This document shows, piece by piece, positions 690 to 12,325 of a stretch of 13,136 nt of DNA. Source of the DNA: Deltaproteobacteria bacterium. GTDB taxonomy: Bacteria; Desulfobacterota; Desulfobacteria; Desulfobacterales; UBA11574. How positions within the stretch are numbered: the stretch's first letter is position 1; every line of letters starts with the position of its first letter. The DNA is taken from the NCBI GenBank assembly GCA_019313025.1, contig JAFDCA010000059.1, positions 1-13,136 on the forward strand, in the 5' to 3' direction. The translations under genes were made by a program, and so were the position numbers. Below the pieces are notes generated by a model. That model was not told the DNA's origin, ran no database searches, and saw only the letters and a list, made by a program, of their open reading frames with translations.

Positions 690-1979
690 TCAGGAATTAT
701 TTCTATGGTCAAACACCCGTTTGCTTTTTCTTTCGGTACGGGGAAGGGAGCCATAATCAACAATTTCCACCTGGCTTCTCACCAGTATCTTGCGTCGAAT
801 TTCTGTTGCCACCTGTTCGGCCAGATGTTTATCATTCCTACTGCTTGCACCCGTCTCTCGCTCCACCTTGATCAGCATCATGTCACGGCCACTTTCACGT
901 TGTTTGAGATGGATCTGAAATTCACTGCTGATGCCTTTCACACGGCTTAACACATGATCAATCTGGCTGGGATAGATATTTACCGCCCTGTAGATAAACA
1001 TATCATCCGTTCGGCCAAGGATTCGGTCATGCATGGGAAACGGCGCACCGCAGGGGCACATGGAACCCATGAGCCGTGTGATGTCATGGGTTCTATAGCG
1101 AACCAGCGGGCTGCCCTCCTTGCAGAGCGTCGTCACCACGAGTTCACCCTGTTTTCCTTGAGAAACCGGCTTTAATGACACCGGGTCGAGAACTTCGAAA
1201 ATAAAATGGTCGGCCCAGTAATGAATGCCGTTATGAAGACTGCAGTCAAGACCGGTTCCCGGACCGTAAAGTTCGGTTAATCCATAAATATCATAAATAT
1301 GCTCAACGCCCATGAGTTCAATGATTCGATCTCTCATGGCGTCACTGTGACGTTCCGCACCCAGGATAATCTTTTTAACCTTTATTTTGGACAATAAATT
1401 TCTTTTATGAATTTCTTCCGCCATGAGCAATGCCATGGATGCCGTGGAACAAAAAACAGTGGTTTCCATGTCCACCAGCATTTCACAGTGCATATCCGCA
1501 TTGGCAGGGCCAAGGGGAACCGCCATGGCGCCGAACCTTTCACAGCCGGCCTGAAATCCCACACCGGCCGTCCAAAGACCGTAGCCAACAGCGATCTGTA
1601 CGCGATCATGCCGGGTCAGACCGGCCATTTGATAACACCGGGCAAATAAATTGGCCCACACGTCAAGATCTTTTTGTGTGTAGCAAAGCACTTTGCGTTT
1701 GCCCGTTGTTCCTGAAGACGCATGAATCCGAACGATATCCTTATATGGCACCGAACGTAATGGGAAAGGGTATTCCTGCTGCAAATCATTTTTATCGGTA
1801 AACGGCAGAAGTTCGATGTCATCCAGTGATTGGATGTCTTCAGGCTTAATGCCTGCGGCGTCGAATTTTTTACGATAGAACGATGAATGTTCATAAACAT
1901 GATTCATGGTCCATTGAAGGCCTTTTAGTTGGATCTGTTTTAATCCTTCTTCGTCCAGATCGTAGGGGATAAAGGGCAT
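690..1979 (-). CDS. paaK: Phenylacetate-CoA ligase family (arylacetate-CoA ligase)
   Basis: 429-aa adenylate-forming enzyme of the PaaK family (usual length about 430-440), which joins an arylacetate such as phenylacetate or indoleacetate to CoA using ATP in the cytoplasm. Visible motifs are the P-loop SSGTTGK (88-94), YGLTE (232-236), RYRTHD (294-299) with the nucleotide-binding Asp, and GRTDDM (322-327) at the hinge to the C-terminal domain. Lysine-rich ERKSKRV (416-422) is where the catalytic Lys is expected. The start is ATG at 1979, with AGAGGAG 6 nt upstream; a TTG 21 nt further upstream would place the SD inside the gene. It lies 155 nt after iorB on the same strand. Pairing with iorAB is the known arrangement for interconversion of arylpyruvates and arylacetates. 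Exact substrate cannot be read from sequence. Confidence 0.9.
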   Translation of the reverse strand: MPFIPYDLDEEGLKQIQLKGLQWTMNHVYEHSSFYRKKFDAAGIKPEDIQSLDDIELLPFTDKNDLQQEYPFPLRSVPYKDIVRIHASSGTTGKRKVLCYTQKDLDVWANLFARCYQMAGLTRHDRVQIAVGYGLWTAGVGFQAGCERFGAMAVPLGPANADMHCEMLVDMETTVFCSTASMALLMAEEIHKRNLLSKIKVKKIILGAERHSDAMRDRIIELMGVEHIYDIYGLTELYGPGTGLDCSLHNGIHYWADHFIFEVLDPVSLKPVSQGKQGELVVTTLCKEGSPLVRYRTHDITRLMGSMCPCGAPFPMHDRILGRTDDMFIYRAVNIYPSQIDHVLSRVKGISSEFQIHLKQRESGRDMMLIKVERETGASSRNDKHLAEQVATEIRRKILVRSQVEIVDYGSLPRTERKSKRVFDHRNNS

Positions 1980-2043
1980 GATAAACTCCTCTTTGAACAA
2001 ACCGCAAAGTGACTAACGTTTGAAATGAGCTAAAGTTAAGGAA

Positions 2044-2134: not shown

Positions 2135-2701
2135 TCACTTTACACTTTTAAATCCTGCTTCAAGAGCCTTTAGGGCATCATTAAGCATTTGTTTCTGTTT
2201 TGCCAGACGATGGTGTAAAACCGTTTTTATATCTTCCAAGGTGCAAAAAAGATCATTTTCATGGGTTTCTGGGATTGCTGCCAGGGCAAAACCGAGAAGG
2301 ATCAGATTGACCGATTTGGGATTAAGAATGTGTTGTGCCAGAATCTCGGCAGCAATGGTATATGCCGAGAATTCCGGTCCGACCATTACATCTTCACGGC
2401 TATTCGCGACAATCCATGCACCCGGTTTCAGAAAGTAGCCATGCCGGGTGAAACTATCCGCCCTTAGCGCCAGCAGACCGTTTGCATTCCCGGGCCGTAT
2501 CAACGGGCTTGAAAAATTTCCCACCTTAAGGTGGGATAATACCGTTCCCCCCCGCTGGGCCATACCGTGGGTTTCCGATGTAAAGACGGAAATCCCCTTC
2601 ATGATTGCCGCTTCCGCCAGCAGCCGCGTGACAAAAAGGACGCCCTGGCCACCTACACCACTGATGACAATCTGCTGCTTTATGGAACTGTCATCCAGCA
2701 T
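2135..2701 (-). CDS. iorB: Indolepyruvate:ferredoxin oxidoreductase, beta subunit
   Basis: 188-aa subunit of the pyruvate/2-ketoacid oxidoreductase gamma-domain family, the usual size for IorB. The N-terminus has ISGVGGQGVLFVTRLLAEAA (13-32), followed by TSETHGMAQRGGTV, both characteristic of IorB. With IorA it forms the enzyme that interconverts indolepyruvate (or phenyl-/hydroxyphenylpyruvate) plus CoA with the arylacetyl-CoA plus CO2, using ferredoxin. The ATG at 2701 has AAGGAAG 6 nt upstream. Its first 11 nt overlap the end of iorA, implying translational coupling and equal subunit production. It depends on the same leader as iorA, so its expression should follow the Trp-codon attenuator. 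Confidence 0.93.
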   Translation of the reverse strand: MLDDSSIKQQIVISGVGGQGVLFVTRLLAEAAIMKGISVFTSETHGMAQRGGTVLSHLKVGNFSSPLIRPGNANGLLALRADSFTRHGYFLKPGAWIVANSREDVMVGPEFSAYTIAAEILAQHILNPKSVNLILLGFALAAIPETHENDLFCTLEDIKTVLHHRLAKQKQMLNDALKALEAGFKSVK

Positions 2702-4514
2702 TTGATACTTCCTTTATCGACTTTTTGGGACAAATATTCATACAAACACCGCATCCATTGCACAGGATGGGGTCGATACTCACATGTTCTTCGGCTTTGT
2801 TTAGAATCAGGGCCGGGCATTCAAAATGGTCGATGCAAAACGCACAACCATCACATGTATCTGTAACTTCAACCTTAATCGGTTGCCATTCCGATATTTC
2901 TTTCCTGAACCGGTCGATCAGGCAGGGATGTCTTGAAATAACCACGGCCGGTCCGTTTTCCCGGCTGTAGGTGACGGCCTCTTTCAACAGTGCGGTAAAT
3001 TCTTTGAGTTGGTAAGGATTTCCCACACGACAAAATTCAACCCCGCACCCCTCAACCACACCCTCAATGTCTACGACATCCAGTGACTCTCCGCAGGCGC
3101 CCATGCCCATGGCAGGTGTGGGTTGGTTTCCGGTCATGGCTGTGGTTTGGTTGTCCAGAATGACAAGTACAAACCGCACCTTCTGAACCACCGCATCGAT
3201 GAGTGCTGGAACACCGGCATGAAAAAACGTTGAATCCCCGATGGTGGCCACAATGTCCGGCTGTTTATTTTCATGTTTATAGGCATGGTAAAGGCCCGCC
3301 GCCTGGCTGACGGCAGCTCCCATACAGAGCACTGTGTCCACCGCACCCAAATTTAATCCAAGGGTATAACATCCGATATCGCTGGGATAAATTCCCTTTG
3401 GGGCCGCCTTTTTAATGGCAAAAAAAGCCGCTCGATGGGGGCAGCCTGCACAAAGTGTCGGGCGTATGCCGGGTTCGGACGGCAGATGAACGGGTTCTGT
3501 ACCGATTCCGGCAAACTCGCCGATGATCTGTTGAATGGTTTCAGGAAGAAGTTCTCCGACCATCGGCACCGAACGGGTCAGCTTTCCTCTGATACGGTGC
3601 CGATCAGCAAGCTGCATCTCGATGACACCGGTGGTTTCTTCGATAACCAGAATTTCGGAATACGTCTTGATCATGTGAGACACGAAATCTTGATGCAAAG
3701 GAAACGGTTGCAACACCTGGTACATGGGAATAACATCCCATAGATTTAAATCTTTCAGGATTTCTTTGGAATGGGCGGCTGCAACACCGGATACGATCAA
3801 TGCTTTTAAAGCCTTTGCTTCGGCATTGAGTCTAATCGGGCCTGTTTTTTTATATCTGGAAATGTCGCTTAGTTTTTTCTCCAGTTCCTGATGCAGATGA
3901 AGGCGAAATTTGGGCGTGGCCGCCCAGCGTGCAGGGTCCTTTCGAAAGTCGACTTCCCGTTTGAAAGGTAAAGTCTCTCCCAGGGTAACATCCTGTCTTG
4001 CATGGCAAACGCGAGTGGTGGGACGCAGCATGACGGGGATTTCAAAGGTCTCTGACAGTTCGAAAGCCGCGGCAATCATCTCTTTGGCCTGTCTGGGAGA
4101 ATCCGGATCGAGCACCGGGATCTTAGCCATCATGGCCATAAGCCTGCTGTCCTGTTCAGTTTGTGAAGAATGGGGGCCCGGATCATCCGCACTGATCACA
4201 ACAAATCCGCCCTTTACACCAAGATATGCGGAACTCATCAGCGGGTCGGATGCCACATTCAAACCCACCTGTTTCATGCTAACCGCCGTTCGTAGTCCAG
4301 CCATACTTCCAGTATAGGCGATTTCAAATGCAATCTTCTCATTCACCGCCCACTGGATATGTCTTTTTTCCGAGCTTTTTTTTTCAAAAGCGGCAAAAGC
4401 GGCAAGAATCTCGGAAGCCGGTGTTCCCGGATAGGATGTTGCCATGACGCAACCGCTTTCCATCAACCCTCGTGCAATTGCTTCATTTCCCAGCATTAAT
4501 TTAGGTTTGCTCAA
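2691..4514 (-). CDS. iorA: Indolepyruvate:ferredoxin oxidoreductase, alpha subunit
   Basis: 607-aa catalytic subunit carrying thiamine diphosphate and iron-sulfur clusters. Seen: the N-terminal 2-ketoacid oxidoreductase domain (LGNEAIARG, SYPGTPASEI), LCAGCPHRAAFF near 354-365, the ThDP/Mg-binding stretch GDSTFF (426-431) to DNQTTAMTGNQ (454-464), and a C-terminal ferredoxin-like domain. That domain has two cysteine sets, C554/557/560/566 and C585/588/591/595. The start chosen is a TTG at 4514 because GGAGAAGG lies just upstream; a longer TTG start at 4532 would precede that SD. Family chemistry is reversible: oxidative decarboxylation of arylpyruvates in catabolism, or reductive carboxylation of arylacetyl-CoA for aromatic amino acid synthesis. 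The Trp-codon leader upstream argues for the second role here, by inference. Confidence 0.94.
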   Translation of the reverse strand: MSKPKLMLGNEAIARGLMESGCVMATSYPGTPASEILAAFAAFEKKSSEKRHIQWAVNEKIAFEIAYTGSMAGLRTAVSMKQVGLNVASDPLMSSAYLGVKGGFVVISADDPGPHSSQTEQDSRLMAMMAKIPVLDPDSPRQAKEMIAAAFELSETFEIPVMLRPTTRVCHARQDVTLGETLPFKREVDFRKDPARWAATPKFRLHLHQELEKKLSDISRYKKTGPIRLNAEAKALKALIVSGVAAAHSKEILKDLNLWDVIPMYQVLQPFPLHQDFVSHMIKTYSEILVIEETTGVIEMQLADRHRIRGKLTRSVPMVGELLPETIQQIIGEFAGIGTEPVHLPSEPGIRPTLCAGCPHRAAFFAIKKAAPKGIYPSDIGCYTLGLNLGAVDTVLCMGAAVSQAAGLYHAYKHENKQPDIVATIGDSTFFHAGVPALIDAVVQKVRFVLVILDNQTTAMTGNQPTPAMGMGACGESLDVVDIEGVVEGCGVEFCRVGNPYQLKEFTALLKEAVTYSRENGPAVVISRHPCLIDRFRKEISEWQPIKVEVTDTCDGCAFCIDHFECPALILNKAEEHVSIDPILCNGCGVCMNICPKKSIKEVSNAG

Positions 4515-4530
4515 TGGCCTTCTCCAAAAC

Positions 4531-4566
4531 AAAAAGCCAACGCTTTTGAAGAAGCGCCGGCTTTTT
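4531..4566 (-). terminator. Attenuator terminator hairpin in the iorA leader
   Basis: Inverted repeat: 8-bp outer stem (AAAAAGCC/GGCTTTTT), a 2x2 internal loop and a 5-bp inner stem (CGCTT/AAGCG), with a 6-nt loop. On the minus strand the 3' arm runs into TTTTTGTTTT. It ends about 6 nt before the iorA Shine-Dalgarno, where a terminator would block the operon, and its 5' arm can also pair with upstream leader RNA (see the attenuator entry). Confidence 0.75.
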
Positions 4567-4660
4567 TAAAAGAGCCATGAGCCTCTTCAACGTAAATTGC
4601 CGAAGCCTCTCACGACTCTGAAATCAATTCATCCCCTGTTTCAAAGGTGGTGAGCATGCT

Positions 4661-4702
4661 TCATGGTTTTCGCCACCACCAGCCCAAAAGTCTTATTTCC
4701 AT
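4661..4702 (-). CDS. Trp-rich leader peptide of the iorA operon
   Basis: A 13-codon ORF, MEIRLLGWWWRKP then TGA, too short for ordinary gene calling. Three consecutive TGG codons (4681-4673) sit four codons before the stop, and the GWWWR core closely resembles the GWWR core of the E. coli trp leader peptide. The ribosome-binding site is weak (AGAGA shortly upstream of ATG), as is common for leader peptides. The Trp codons form one arm of an RNA hairpin with segment 4652-4646. It is expected to sense charged tRNA-Trp and control read-through into iorA; the peptide itself probably has no function. Confidence 0.8.
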   Translation of the reverse strand: MEIRLLGWWWRKP

Positions 4703-4755: not shown

Positions 4756-4784
4756 CAATTACCCAAGTCAAATAAATTTGTCAA
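4756..4784 (-). promoter_or_regulatory. Possible sigma-70 promoter for the iorA leader
   Basis: Minus-strand TTGACA at 4784-4779 is a perfect -35. At 17 bp spacing the -10 would be TAATTG (4761-4756), which is poor. It would start a leader of roughly 215 nt before the terminator, suitable for attenuation. A second TTGACT overlaps at 4771-4766 without a better -10. Confidence 0.3.
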
Positions 4785-5259: not shown

Positions 5260-5847
5260 GTGTTGTGCGATATGAGCCGAACAATGCATAATTCCAGTAA
5301 GTTAGTTGCGATTTGGTTTGTTTTGTCGGTATTGGCTGTACCACCGGTATCTGCCGAAGATATCTGTCGAATTGAGGTCAGTGTTGGGCATGGTCCCCAA
5401 TGGGTAGACAATACCATCCAACAATACAACTCAGTAATTGATGTCAATTTCTTTTTGAAGGAATACCCCATTCCCAGATTGGGCCGTTCAACCCTTCTGA
5501 TAGGCGTAGGCTACAGTTATTTGTGGACCGATGCAGATATCAATCAGGACAACCACGTGATATCATTAATACCTGCATACCGGTATTATTTTGAAATATT
5601 AGAGAAATTTCAGATGTTTGTTCATCTTGCTGCAGGTCCTTCGTTCATGTCATCTTATAATTTGGGATATCAGGAGCAGGGATCCAAATTTATTTTCAAT
5701 GATTACGCCGGCTTTGGTGTGCGGTTCGCCCAAAGCAATAAATGGGAGTTAAGCTTGGTTTGGCGTCACCTGTCCAATGCGAACCTCTATAGGCCCAATC
5801 AAGGGTATGATGTGCCATTTACATTCATTTTGGGACGGGTGTTTTAG
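5260..5847 (+). CDS. pagL: PagL-like lipid A 3-O-deacylase / acyloxyacyl hydrolase
   Basis: 195 aa from a GTG start with AAGGG 8 nt upstream; an in-frame ATG four codons later is an alternative. A signal peptide is clear: Arg/His/Lys n-region, hydrophobic core about 15-26, and cleavage probably after VSA (32). The rest reads as an outer-membrane beta-barrel of PagL size, ending in Phe. The catalytic motif WRHLSNANLYRPNQGYD gives His170 and Ser172, as in PagL (His-x-Ser-Asn). The third triad position, 14 residues after the His, is Asp184 instead of the Glu of Pseudomonas PagL. Family members remove the 3-linked acyl chain of lipid A at the outer membrane. It stands alone between non-coding stretches. 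Family assignment is fairly sure; activity with Asp is uncertain. Confidence 0.77.
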   Translation: MLCDMSRTMHNSSKLVAIWFVLSVLAVPPVSAEDICRIEVSVGHGPQWVDNTIQQYNSVIDVNFFLKEYPIPRLGRSTLLIGVGYSYLWTDADINQDNHVISLIPAYRYYFEILEKFQMFVHLAAGPSFMSSYNLGYQEQGSKFIFNDYAGFGVRFAQSNKWELSLVWRHLSNANLYRPNQGYDVPFTFILGRVF

Positions 5848-9458: not shown

Positions 9459-9505
9459 ACCCAACATAGTTGCATTGGATCGCAAGGGGATGCGCGGCGT
9501 TAAAC
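9459..9505 (+). other. attC-like segment between the DinB-like and HNH genes
   Basis: ACCCAAC (9459-9465) fits the integron R'' consensus RYYYAAC, and GTTAAAC (9499-9505) fits the R' consensus GTTRRRY. Between them TGCAT/ATGCG can pair. The element is short (47 bp) and the inner stem weak. It shares GGGGAnnnGCGGCGTTA with the junction after the CsaA-like gene. No integrase is in the window, so this is only a candidate. Confidence 0.25.
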
Positions 9506-9538
9506 TTAATCCATACTGAACGAATAGAGGATACCCAC

Positions 9539-9925
9539 ATGTCATCGAAGAAGACGAACAGAGACTCCAACAGGCGGAATCAAATCATCGCCGAGGCCCG
9601 GCATGACCGAGAGCGCCAGGAGAAGACCTATCGAGGGCAAGCGCTCAAGATGCTTCCGTGGATCTGTGCGGGTTGCGGGCGTGAATTTTCGGGCAAGAGA
9701 GTTCGAGAGCTCACCGTCCATCACAAGGATCACAACCACGATAACAATCCGCCGGACGGCAGCAACTGGGAGTTGCTGTGTATCTACTGCCACGACAATG
9801 AGCATTCCCGGGACCAGGTTTCGGAATGGTATGACAAAACGACGCCGGACGGCGAACAAGAGCCTGATTACGATAACAGGCCTTTCGCGAGCCTGAAGGA
9901 TTTACTGAAGGACAAAAAATCGTAA
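9539..9925 (+). CDS. yajD: HNH nuclease family protein, YajD type
   Basis: 128 aa from ATG at 9539, chosen because GAGG lies 8 nt upstream and because an earlier start would add a 23-residue leader unlike the family. The order of motifs matches E. coli YajD: a basic N-terminus, PWICAGCGREF (Cys43, Cys46), LTVHHKDHNHDNNP with the HNH histidines (61, 62), GSNWELLCIYCHDNEHS (Cys81, Cys84, His85) and the C-terminal PFASLKDLL. The Cys pairs should hold a structural zinc, and the His-Asn-His core a catalytic divalent metal. The cellular role of YajD is not established. It is a stand-alone gene. Confidence 0.9.
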   Translation: MSSKKTNRDSNRRNQIIAEARHDRERQEKTYRGQALKMLPWICAGCGREFSGKRVRELTVHHKDHNHDNNPPDGSNWELLCIYCHDNEHSRDQVSEWYDKTTPDGEQEPDYDNRPFASLKDLLKDKKS

Positions 9926-10481: not shown

Positions 10482-10877
10482 ATGAATCGCAAACTTAAGA
10501 CAAAAACCGGCATTGCTAGAATCTGGGCCGCCTTCTTTTATTCCCTGAATGGTTTACGTTTCGCAATTTCGAAAGAAGCGGCATTTCGTCAAGAGGTCTC
10601 CATACTCGTTGTTGTTTTGGTTGCACTCTTTTTTTTGCCCCTATCTCTTTTTTGGAAAGGGTTGCTCTTTTTTGCAACAACATCCGTACTTGTCGTAGAG
10701 CTGTTGAATTCGGCAATTGAGTCGGTTGTAGATATCGCGTCGCCAGAATATCATGCCCTGGCTAAACGGGCGAAAGATCTCGGTAGCGCCGCCGTATTGG
10801 TCAGCATTGTTCTTGCCATAGTATTGTGGGGTATTGCCATTTTTATCATGCTTCAGGGGACTTCCGGGACAACCTAA
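10482..10877 (+). CDS. dgkA: Undecaprenol / diacylglycerol kinase, DgkA family
   Basis: 131 aa integral membrane kinase that phosphorylates diacylglycerol (or undecaprenol) with ATP at the inner membrane, recycling lipid intermediates. Three hydrophobic segments lie at about 41-58, 62-82 and 104-124. The signature VELLNSAIESVVD (72-84) and SPEYHALAKRAKDLGSAAVL (87-106) carry the catalytic and ATP-binding Glu, Lys and Asp residues of DgkA, and AFRQE lies at 34-38 as in E. coli. No Shine-Dalgarno is clear. The preceding frame, which starts at 10408 (ATGAAACTC...), runs through this start and is not considered a gene. The gene stands alone. Confidence 0.92.
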   Translation: MNRKLKTKTGIARIWAAFFYSLNGLRFAISKEAAFRQEVSILVVVLVALFFLPLSLFWKGLLFFATTSVLVVELLNSAIESVVDIASPEYHALAKRAKDLGSAAVLVSIVLAIVLWGIAIFIMLQGTSGTT

Positions 10878-11145: not shown

Positions 11146-11601
11146 ATGAAAGTTACCCAAGGTGATCTGATAAAGAAAGCAAAAGAAGGAAAATTCGATC
11201 TGATTGTTCATGGTTGCAACTGCTTTTGCACCATGGGGGGCGGAATTGCAAAGGGAATCAAAAAAGAGTTTCCAAAGGCCTTTGATGCAGACCAAGCAAC
11301 GCCCAAGGGATCAAAAGAAAAGTTAGGTACCTGCTCATTCGCAAAGATAGAACAAAAAGGAATCCATCTCATTGTTGTCAATGCCTACACCCAGTTCGAT
11401 TATCGTGGTAAGGGTGAAAAAGTTGACTACGATGCCGTAAGGTCTTGTATGAAATGGATCAAAGAGAATTTTGAAGGAAAAAGAATAGGACTCCCCAGAA
11501 TTGGCGCGGGTCTGGCCGGAGGAGACTGGGAGAGAATTTCGCAAATCATTGACAAGGAGCTGGCTGGAGAGGATGTTACGCTCGTTGAATATAAACCGTG
11601 A
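11146..11601 (+). CDS. Macro domain protein (ADP-ribose binding/hydrolysing)
   Basis: 151 aa single macro domain. Seen: VTQGDLIK at the first strand, the ligand loop HGCNCFCTMGGGIAKGIKKE (22-41), VVNAYTQFDYRG (78-89), and the phosphate loop LPRIGAGLAGGDWERI (116-131). The 'GAGLAGGDW' form resembles the Poa1/ADP-ribose-1''-phosphate phosphatase and DarG-like groups, which remove or process ADP-ribose. AGGAG lies 9 nt before the ATG. No ADP-ribosyltransferase toxin is next to it, so a DarTG pair is not supported here. Substrate is unknown. Confidence 0.86.
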   Translation: MKVTQGDLIKKAKEGKFDLIVHGCNCFCTMGGGIAKGIKKEFPKAFDADQATPKGSKEKLGTCSFAKIEQKGIHLIVVNAYTQFDYRGKGEKVDYDAVRSCMKWIKENFEGKRIGLPRIGAGLAGGDWERISQIIDKELAGEDVTLVEYKP

Positions 11602-11732: not shown

Positions 11733-11786
11733 ATGATTGTGTTTACAATACAAAATCCACGGATATTGTCCGGGCCAAAAGTATGA
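11733..11786 (+). CDS. 17-codon leader ORF overlapping the trpF start
   Basis: ATG at 11733 has AAGG 4 nt upstream. The peptide is MIVFTIQNPRILSGPKV, and its TGA (11784-11786) overlaps the trpF ATG as ATGA. trpF itself lacks a good Shine-Dalgarno, so re-initiation from this short ORF would explain its translation. No Trp codons are present, so it is not an attenuation peptide. A chance ORF is possible. Confidence 0.4.
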   Translation: MIVFTIQNPRILSGPKV

Positions 11787-12325
11787 ATATGTTTGCAAAA
11801 GTATGCGGGTTAAAAACAAAAGAACAGATAGATAAGGCCATAGAATATGGATATGACGCCATCGGAATTGTAACCTATTCAAAAAGTAAACGATATTGTT
11901 CTAATAAGGACGCAATTGAACTGGCAGCATATGCCAAAGGAAAAATAAAACGCTTCGTTGTCGGCCTTACGTATAGTGATGTGAAAGACATTGCATACCT
12001 ATTCGATTATACACAAATATATGAAGCAAAGCAGGTTCCCAACCTGGTATTGGCATCAAAAGAAATGCCGCCCTCGGATATCCATTATGAATATTTTCTA
12101 TATGACACCAGTATCGGCAGCGGTACTTTTCAGAAATTCCCGGAATGGGTAAAAGACATGACAGGAAAAATCATCATTGCCGGCGGTCTCAATAAAGAAA
12201 ATGTCTGTGCCGTAATCCAGGATATTAAACCTTTTGGTGTGGATGTATCCAGCGGTGTTGAAAAGGACGGCGTTAAAGATTTCAGGATGATGAAGGAATT
12301 CATCGATGCCGTAAAAAACTGCTAA
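11783..12325 (+). CDS. trpF: Phosphoribosylanthranilate isomerase-like protein, short form
   Basis: 180 aa TIM-barrel enzyme of tryptophan biosynthesis, converting phosphoribosylanthranilate to CdRP. Seen: FAKVCGL with the catalytic Cys (Cys8), YDAIGIV at strand 2, YDTSIGSGTF with the catalytic Asp (Asp108), AGGLNKENV (133-141) and DVSSGVEKDGVKD (154-166), which bind the phosphates. It is about 20 residues shorter than usual, and the canonical VQLHG segment is replaced by YTQIYEAKQVP around 76-86, so this is a divergent member. The N-terminus is well matched to the family. It is not in a trp operon; neighbours are unrelated. TrpF activity is likely but not certain, as side-branch isomerases share this fold. 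Confidence 0.8.
   Translation: MNMFAKVCGLKTKEQIDKAIEYGYDAIGIVTYSKSKRYCSNKDAIELAAYAKGKIKRFVVGLTYSDVKDIAYLFDYTQIYEAKQVPNLVLASKEMPPSDIHYEYFLYDTSIGSGTFQKFPEWVKDMTGKIIIAGGLNKENVCAVIQDIKPFGVDVSSGVEKDGVKDFRMMKEFIDAVKNC

Follow-up and report, generated by a model that had tools for sequence, protein, structure and literature searches.

A leader on the minus strand of the window (the whole 13,136-nt stretch of DNA that was analysed) precedes iorA, iorB and a paaK-like gene. It is very probably a ribosome-mediated Trp-codon attenuator with a six-segment relay, by which a shortage of Trp would switch on the operon, likely for making Trp from indoleacetate. What is observed is the anatomy of the leader, how it is conserved and covaries, and which genes have leaders of this kind. 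Three features of an attenuator were seen, i.e. an ORF with a run of Trp codons, covarying exclusive pairings, and intrinsic terminators between the leader ORF and the first gene.

Anatomy of the leader and the downstream genes

The initial annotation of this DNA had described a 13-codon ORF with three consecutive Trp codons, a terminator hairpin directly before the ribosome-binding site of iorA and, linking them, a chain of exclusive pairings (1:2, 2:3, 3:4, 4:5, 5:6). All three were found again (Table 1). In the window leader none of the five pairings requires a non-standard pair, the stop codon TGA shares bases with segment 2 (TGAAGC...), and the end of the second terminator (T2) lies 5 bases before the GGAGAAGG of iorA. 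The annotation had counted one terminator; the 5:6 terminator stands, but hairpin 3:4 (T1) is a terminator candidate too, and the two are in tandem in most relatives. Folding of the strand 4720-4528 was better than that of 200/200 dinucleotide shuffles (z -4.12).

The TTG start of iorA was chosen because relatives show a GTG/TTG site at the same place. The best-matching families of IorA and IorB were TIGR03336 and NF004916, both with scores slightly under the curated cut-offs, and the TIGR02155 score of the PaaK-like ligase is under the equivalog cut-off and therefore does not fix its substrate. A TrpF-like gene (phosphoribosylanthranilate isomerase, 180 aa), under the NCBIfam cut-offs and over Pfam's, is located about 7 kb off on the opposite strand, and no match to the covariance model described below (R1) was found before it.

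Table 1. Positions of the leader elements, the operon and other genes in the window
Feature	Position	Strand	Remarks
Putative promoter TTGACA-17-TAATTG	4756..4784	-	sequence pattern upstream of leader
Leader ORF MEIRLLGWWWRKP, 13 codons + stop	4661..4702	-	ATG 4702; Trp codons 4681-4673; stop 4663-4661
Segment 1 (Trp codons)	4674..4680	-	partner 4652-4646; 90.2% of cells paired (16 sequences), no two-sided change
Segment 2, start inside stop codon	4646..4662	-	partner is segment 1 or segment 3
2:3 pairing	4662-4658:4606-4602 and 4654-4650:4613-4609	-	halves 100% and 93.8% of cells paired
Segment 3	4599..4619	-	antiterminator with segment 2; first terminator (T1) with segment 4
Segment 4	4571..4591	-	partner is segment 3 (T1) or segment 5
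T1 outer helix	4619-4609:4581-4571	-	97.7% paired; two-sided changes in 4/11 pairs
T1 inner helix	4605-4599:4591-4585	-	76.4% paired; no two-sided changes
4:5 pairing	4590-4581:4555-4546	-	85.9% paired; two-sided changes in 4/10 pairs
T-run after hairpin 3:4 (T1)	4568..4571	-	
Second terminator T2	4531..4563	-	segment 5 (4563-4552), segment 6 (4545-4534), TTTTT 4535-4531
iorA Shine-Dalgarno GGAGAAGG	4518..4525	-	read from sequence
iorA, start TTG 4514	2691..4514	-	indolepyruvate ferredoxin oxidoreductase alpha; TIGR03336 646.9 bits (cut-off 650.9)
iorB	2135..2701	-	indolepyruvate oxidoreductase beta; NF004916 214.9 bits (cut-off 227)
paaK-like aryl-CoA ligase	690..2000	-	TIGR02155 E 1.6e-117, under equivalog cut-off
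PagL-like lipid A deacylase	5260..5847		
HNH nuclease	9470..9925		
Diacylglycerol kinase	10482..10877		
Macro-domain gene	11146..11601		
TrpF-like gene	11783..12325	+	

Conservation and covariation of iorA leaders

A scan of species genomes for IorA gave 49 loci, and 47 upstream stretches (46 loci and the window) were used; L008 and L041 were left out as too short and L048 because the gene start was absent. ORFs were taken as Trp-rich if three or more of six codons were Trp, and expectations came from dinucleotide shuffles. Such an ORF was found within 300 nt of iorA in 15/47 stretches (0.18 expected) and within 450 nt in 18/47 (0.27 expected). The reverse strand of the 47 stretches held no Trp-rich ORF, and shuffling of the window upstream region gave one in 0/200 (300 nt) and 1/200 (450 nt) shuffles. 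In 43/51 leaders the 130 nt before the leader contain an exact TTGACA, as compared to 1.88 expected from base shuffles.

Twenty leaders were located and the 16 most alike were aligned, while L071, L085, L098 and L115 were excluded as too divergent before covariation was counted. For the terminator folding (1:2, 3:4 and 5:6) 89.8% of the cells were paired (shuffles 87.3%), and 22 cells showed a two-sided change, as compared to 10.8 +/- 2.9 in shuffles, with 0/500 as high. Its 9 pairs with a two-sided change were matched by 64/500 shuffles and its 33 further pair types by 331/500. The antiterminator folding (2:3 and 4:5) had 91.6% of cells paired (shuffles 86.6%) and 19 cells with a two-sided change (7.0 +/- 2.0 in shuffles, 0/500 as high), its 6 pairs with such a change being matched by 66/500 shuffles and its 23 further pair types by 44/500. 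Slid controls reached 37-60% and 42-51% of cells paired for the two foldings, respectively, a difference that is in part artefactual because the structure was drawn from the window.

Over the 16 leaders, the 5:6 helix had 90.1% of cells paired and two-sided changes in 5/12 pairs, and helix 1:2 is the least supported since no two-sided change occurs there. One column of segment 3 covaries with partners in both segments 2 and 4, three of the changed rows (L013, L014 and L016) being close relatives. Column-wise counting undercounts 4:5 where the register shifts (L065 and the L013 group), and therefore duplex energies were used too. The comparison with related iorA leaders, which the initial annotation had proposed as a check, came out in its favour: the Trp codons are conserved, 2:3 and 4:5 carry compensatory changes, and terminators are present. 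Judged from the ORF counts and the compensatory changes in both foldings, the leader structure and the Trp ORF before iorA are not due to chance.

Pairing strength and folding of the nascent RNA

The covariance model R1, built on the 16 aligned leaders, was run against 389 genomes of the class and matched at E 0.01 or better in 119/389, the weak matches not all being real. The best R1 match was on the expected strand in 52/52 sources, which were picked because a leader or match had already been seen and 16 of which built R1. The duplex test set was 47 leaders, leaving out five for which the model alignment gave no segment 4 or no segment 5. Pairing 4:5 was better than shuffles (z<-2) in 36/47 leaders and 2:3 in 35/41. 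Non-model pairings reached z<-2 in 12/47 (3:5), 4/47 (4:6) and 4/47 (3:6) leaders, and because 3:5 has a mean z of -1.2 the shuffles are not a perfect null. The leader's own 4:5 was stronger than the mean of species-swapped 4:5 in 40/47. In L093, L098 and L102, which have weak T-runs at both terminators, 4:5 was no better than shuffles, and 2:3 was weak in L224 and L226.

A run of at least four T's follows hairpin 3:4 in 36/52 leaders, thus most leaders carry tandem terminators. Such a run follows 5:6 in 44/48 leaders, a count in which the sole terminator of L040 was aligned to 5:6, and both hairpins in 32. By reading of the sequences, L027, L045, L040, L042 and L049 have a single terminator with a T-run.

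Equilibrium folding was tried as a test of the switch, where terminators were favoured in most states, and was replaced by folding of the nascent RNA. For 2:3 the RNA was cut before segment 4 in 40 of the 47 leaders, those with a clear frame, and scored with a measure where about 1 equals ten pairs and 0.5 is the line for formed. With the ribosome on the Trp codons 2:3 was formed in 40/40 leaders, with the ribosome at the stop codon in 0/40 and with the ribosome absent in 28/40. Since 2:3 forms ribosome-free in these 28, 1:2 yields no clear basal termination, and for low expression without any translation the model gives no explanation. When segments 1-3 were set aside 4:5 formed before segment 6 emerged in 46/47 leaders, and with segment 6 present 4:5 stayed ahead in 10/47, the window not among them. 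At equilibrium 3:4 remained formed in the stalled state in 25/40 leaders, including the window. The switch must therefore be kinetic, because at equilibrium 3:4 mostly persists when the ribosome is stalled and 4:5 mostly loses to segment 6. The logic of the E. coli trp leader is likewise kinetic.

Distribution over iorA loci

The IorA orthologue of the window was found at E 1e-180 or better in 102/389 genomes, and 34/111 distinct iorA loci are leader-positive (window counted, paralogues aside). The 34 include L009, which has the hairpins without a Trp ORF, and L084, where the leader is before a trpB2 upstream of iorA (L084 and L228 are from the same genome). Upstream sequence was short in L008, L041 and L114 (<300 nt) and in L003 (332 nt) in the 111-locus count. 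Close relatives without Trp codons, named by the initial annotation as evidence against an attenuator, are not the pattern found: 10 of the 12 nearest iorA orthologues (74% identity or more) have the leader, L009 among these without Trp codons, and the other two have 332 nt (L003) and 180 nt (L008) of upstream sequence. Slightly under 74% identity, no leader was found in L011, L069 and L010. Mapped on a quick IorA tree, the leader takes 16 changes to explain, as compared to 29.8 in shuffles, so it is clustered but was gained or lost repeatedly. Downstream of iorAB, paaK is present in 19 leader-positive and 23 leaderless loci; it was not in reach in 8 and 37, respectively, and 24 of the 111 were not judgeable.

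A second iorA paralogue (36-38% identity) had an R1 match in 0/11 loci. At one of these paralogue loci, L152, a Trp-rich ORF without an R1 match lies 532-595 nt upstream, and the Trp-rich ORFs of L075, L079 and L152 were not counted as leaders, as the model did not match them. In the class of L040 a Trp leader precedes iorA in 5/8 genomes, and the other three have 0, 170 and 231 nt upstream. In Desulfonema magnum (L009, 3273-3467) hairpins 3:4 and 5:6 before iorA are kept, and a long inverted repeat without Trp codons replaces the leader-peptide region. L039 (2855-3500) has an insert between leader and iorA that by eye may encode a protein of four-helix-bundle type, and L003 may carry a similar insert.

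Other genes with the leader

R1-type leaders were also found before paaK alone in 10 loci, with a Trp ORF seen in 9 and L183 cut by the contig end; nine of these genomes have a distant iorA paralogue only, and G266 has no iorA match. The leader type was found before trpB2 in 8/17 trpB2 loci, one of the others having 72 nt upstream. In L228 one leader is placed ahead of a trpB2-iorA-iorB-paaK run, where trpB2 encodes a TrpB-like enzyme (NF009057). For trpE, 20 genomes were sampled, 17 had a match and 16 upstream regions were taken, that of G166 (weaker match) not. A Trp leader was present in 16/16, with WWW in 12 and WCW in 4. At least two Trp in six codons were found in 16/16 (1.43 expected) and at least three in 12/16 (0.04 expected). 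Trp leaders before trpE in 16/16 make the iorA leader one of a set of Trp leaders. Together with the leaders before paaK, trpB2 and trpB2-iorA-iorB-paaK, this means that iorAB-paaK seems, on sequence grounds, to be part of a Trp-starvation regulon.

Forty regions (39 further R1 matches and the G100 operon) were sorted by downstream gene, by BLAST or by eye, and family models were used to check eight proteins behind R1 matches. With a Trp leader there were trpE (10), trpB2 (6), and iorA, trpD, DAHP synthase, a shikimate-type operon (L218) and a TRAP binding protein (1 each). Without a Trp leader there were operons of aroA'-aroB' type (11), DAHP synthase (3), a chorismate-mutase-like gene and a paaK paralogue (1 each), and unrelated genes (3). 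The weaker matches before aroA'-aroB' type operons (L194, L200, L204, L207, L210, L212, L215, L216, L220, L223 and L227) had no Trp ORF in the scan, 2-amino-3,7-dideoxy-hept-6-ulosonate synthase being checked in L194 only. Perhaps these are attenuators for other aromatic amino acids.

L188 has an R1 match before trpB2 and no Trp ORF with an ATG or GTG start. R1 scores around 30 bits are unsafe; the match of L086, which by eye resembles a thiamin-type leader, is an example and was rejected. A TRAP transporter binding protein (DctP) gene in L193 (1935-2960, minus strand) has a Trp leader of its own, and a similar DctP gene in L086 (3284-4312, plus strand) comes directly after iorAB; these DctP proteins are candidate importers of indoleacetate. 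The trpB2 of G137, G147 and G363 (L265-L267) has one in-match TAG and that of G006 (L268) a TAA, which may be the natural end. An unrelated microRNA family of Rfam gives sub-threshold scores on both strands of L228 32-107, which probably reflects a near-palindromic repeat.

No trpE, trpD or IGPS (trpC) match was found in G002 and G100, which keep trpA, trpB2, iorAB and paaK, with Trp leaders. One missing contig each could explain this, because the trp genes lie close together in other genomes. A third genome, G241, also lacks trpE; it gave matches for a trpD-like gene and IGPS, and none for trpA. The chances seem about even that in Desulfobacterota one Trp-starvation regulon couples trpE, trpB2, iorAB-paaK and at times an importer, that reductive carboxylation of indoleacetate is a regulated, normal Trp route, the main one in some lineages where trpE/trpD/trpC are absent, and that the tandem-terminator relay was copied between operons.

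Proposed mechanism and alternative explanations

Termination in cells and its dependence on Trp are what we infer from this leader. With ample charged tRNA-Trp the ribosome would run to the stop codon and mask segment 2, so that 3:4 (T1) and 5:6 (T2) fold and transcription stops before iorA. With uncharged tRNA-Trp the ribosome would stall at the Trp codons and mask segment 1, allowing 2:3 to form, which would free segment 4 for pairing with segment 5; both terminators would be broken and iorA-iorB-paaK transcribed. Trp shortage would thus turn the operon on, as seems to be the case for trpE and often for trpB2. The earlier suggestion that charged tRNA-Trp controls iorAB gains support from the comparison, and the case is strong because in related genomes trpB2 can carry this leader type and trpE is preceded by Trp leaders.

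The attenuator may be real and IorAB-PaaK nevertheless oxidative, breaking down Trp or Phe to arylacetate with a gain of ATP and reduced ferredoxin, in which case the leader would only tune a catabolic operon. IorAB is best known as catabolic, from peptide-fermenting archaea, and the 23 loci with paaK and iorAB together without leader fit such a role. Switching on at Trp shortage would however be perverse for Trp breakdown, and the same leader type at trpB2, the Trp leaders at trpE, and in L228 a single leader serving both trpB2 and iorAB-paaK all speak against it, as does the lack of a leader at the other iorA paralogue, which is the candidate gene for a breakdown enzyme. We consider a catabolic operon rather unlikely. 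A sensor of free Trp like TnaC, inducing a catabolic operon at plenty, is much less probable still. TnaC has a conserved peptide with Pro before the stop codon and Rho-dependent control, and the window peptide does have Pro before its stop codon, but the peptide end varies among iorA leaders (KL, KS, RL, KF, EF, KP, RT, NL) and others (TP, RS) and is thus not conserved. The Trp-codon runs, exclusive hairpins and intrinsic terminators also suit codon stalling better than Rho-dependent arrest, and the TnaC-type reading was dropped.

Control could in part be translational, if release of 5:6 also frees the ribosome-binding site of iorA, to which T2 is close in the window. This appears improbable, as in some relatives the leader is far from the start (at -304 in L005, and with the insert in L039) and the T-runs point to termination. 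Finally, the hairpins could simply terminate something that lies upstream, the Trp ORF being accidental. A simple terminator scan listed no minus-strand site at the leader, only an overlapping plus-strand site, and terminator-like sites across the whole window are about as many as expected from shuffles (16 vs. 12.5). Conservation and covariation contradict an accident, as does the promoter-like site just upstream of most leaders, and we regard it as hardly conceivable.

Relation to known attenuators

The leader shares with the E. coli-type trp leader the short ORF with consecutive Trp codons, the 2:3 antiterminator and the 3:4 terminator with T-run. It differs in that its target is iorAB-paaK, that it has two more segments and that in most cases there is a second terminator. 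The Rfam model RF00513 (Trp_leader) did not match the window up to E 5, and the same holds for ten related loci up to E 0.5. The enterobacterial his attenuator has six segments with the foldings A:B, C:D and E:F versus B:C and D:E, which is the same chain with two exclusive foldings as in the iorA leader. Thus the five pairing steps, which the initial annotation had regarded as exceptional, are present but not unprecedented. Unlike the his leader, the iorA leader peptide has Trp codons and not His, and its hairpin 3:4 mostly has a T-run, whereas C:D of the his leader is not known to have one. By analogy the iorA leader would work like the his attenuator, but it is not a his leader.

Trp-codon leaders have been predicted for trp operons of Actinobacteria, including trpB2A in C. 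diphtheriae (PMC1262725), and share with ours the antiterminator, the terminator and, in one case, the position before a trpB2 operon. These are from another phylum, and no iorAB, paaK or tandem terminators are described in the part of that paper drawn on here. Among open-licence PMC papers, no report of Trp attenuation of iorAB or paaK was found in titles and the starts of abstracts. As far as searched, the mechanism is of a known kind and the targets iorAB-paaK and the tandem relay are new.

Probable metabolic role of iorAB-paaK

That control by Trp shortage would be common to iorAB-paaK and trpB2, with a parallel in trpE, speaks for a role in biosynthesis. The likely function of iorAB-paaK is the formation of Trp from indoleacetate through reductive carboxylation; the direction of the enzymes and the substrate we likewise infer. 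The PaaK-like ligase would convert indoleacetate to indoleacetyl-CoA, IorAB in reverse would carboxylate this reductively to indolepyruvate, and transamination would give Trp. Rumen anaerobes use aryl acids for amino acids in a similar way. In Methanococcus maripaludis aryl acids are reported to be converted to aromatic amino acids via indolepyruvate oxidoreductase (Porat et al., as cited in PMC4162585), which is the same proposed use of IorAB. That route is archaeal, and the part of PMC4162585 consulted does not mention an attenuator.

The direction in which IorAB and a CoA ligase work is unreadable from the protein sequence, and a Trp leader that senses starvation would be an independent, genome-encoded answer, since it implies that these enzymes are wanted at times of Trp shortage. 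Salvage of indoleacetate to Trp in relatives of anaerobic sulfate reducers thereby becomes directly testable. If true, iorAB, paaK and perhaps a TRAP importer join the genes under amino-acid attenuation, and a relay that disrupts two terminators with a single ribosome stall would offer an easy means of making an attenuator tighter.
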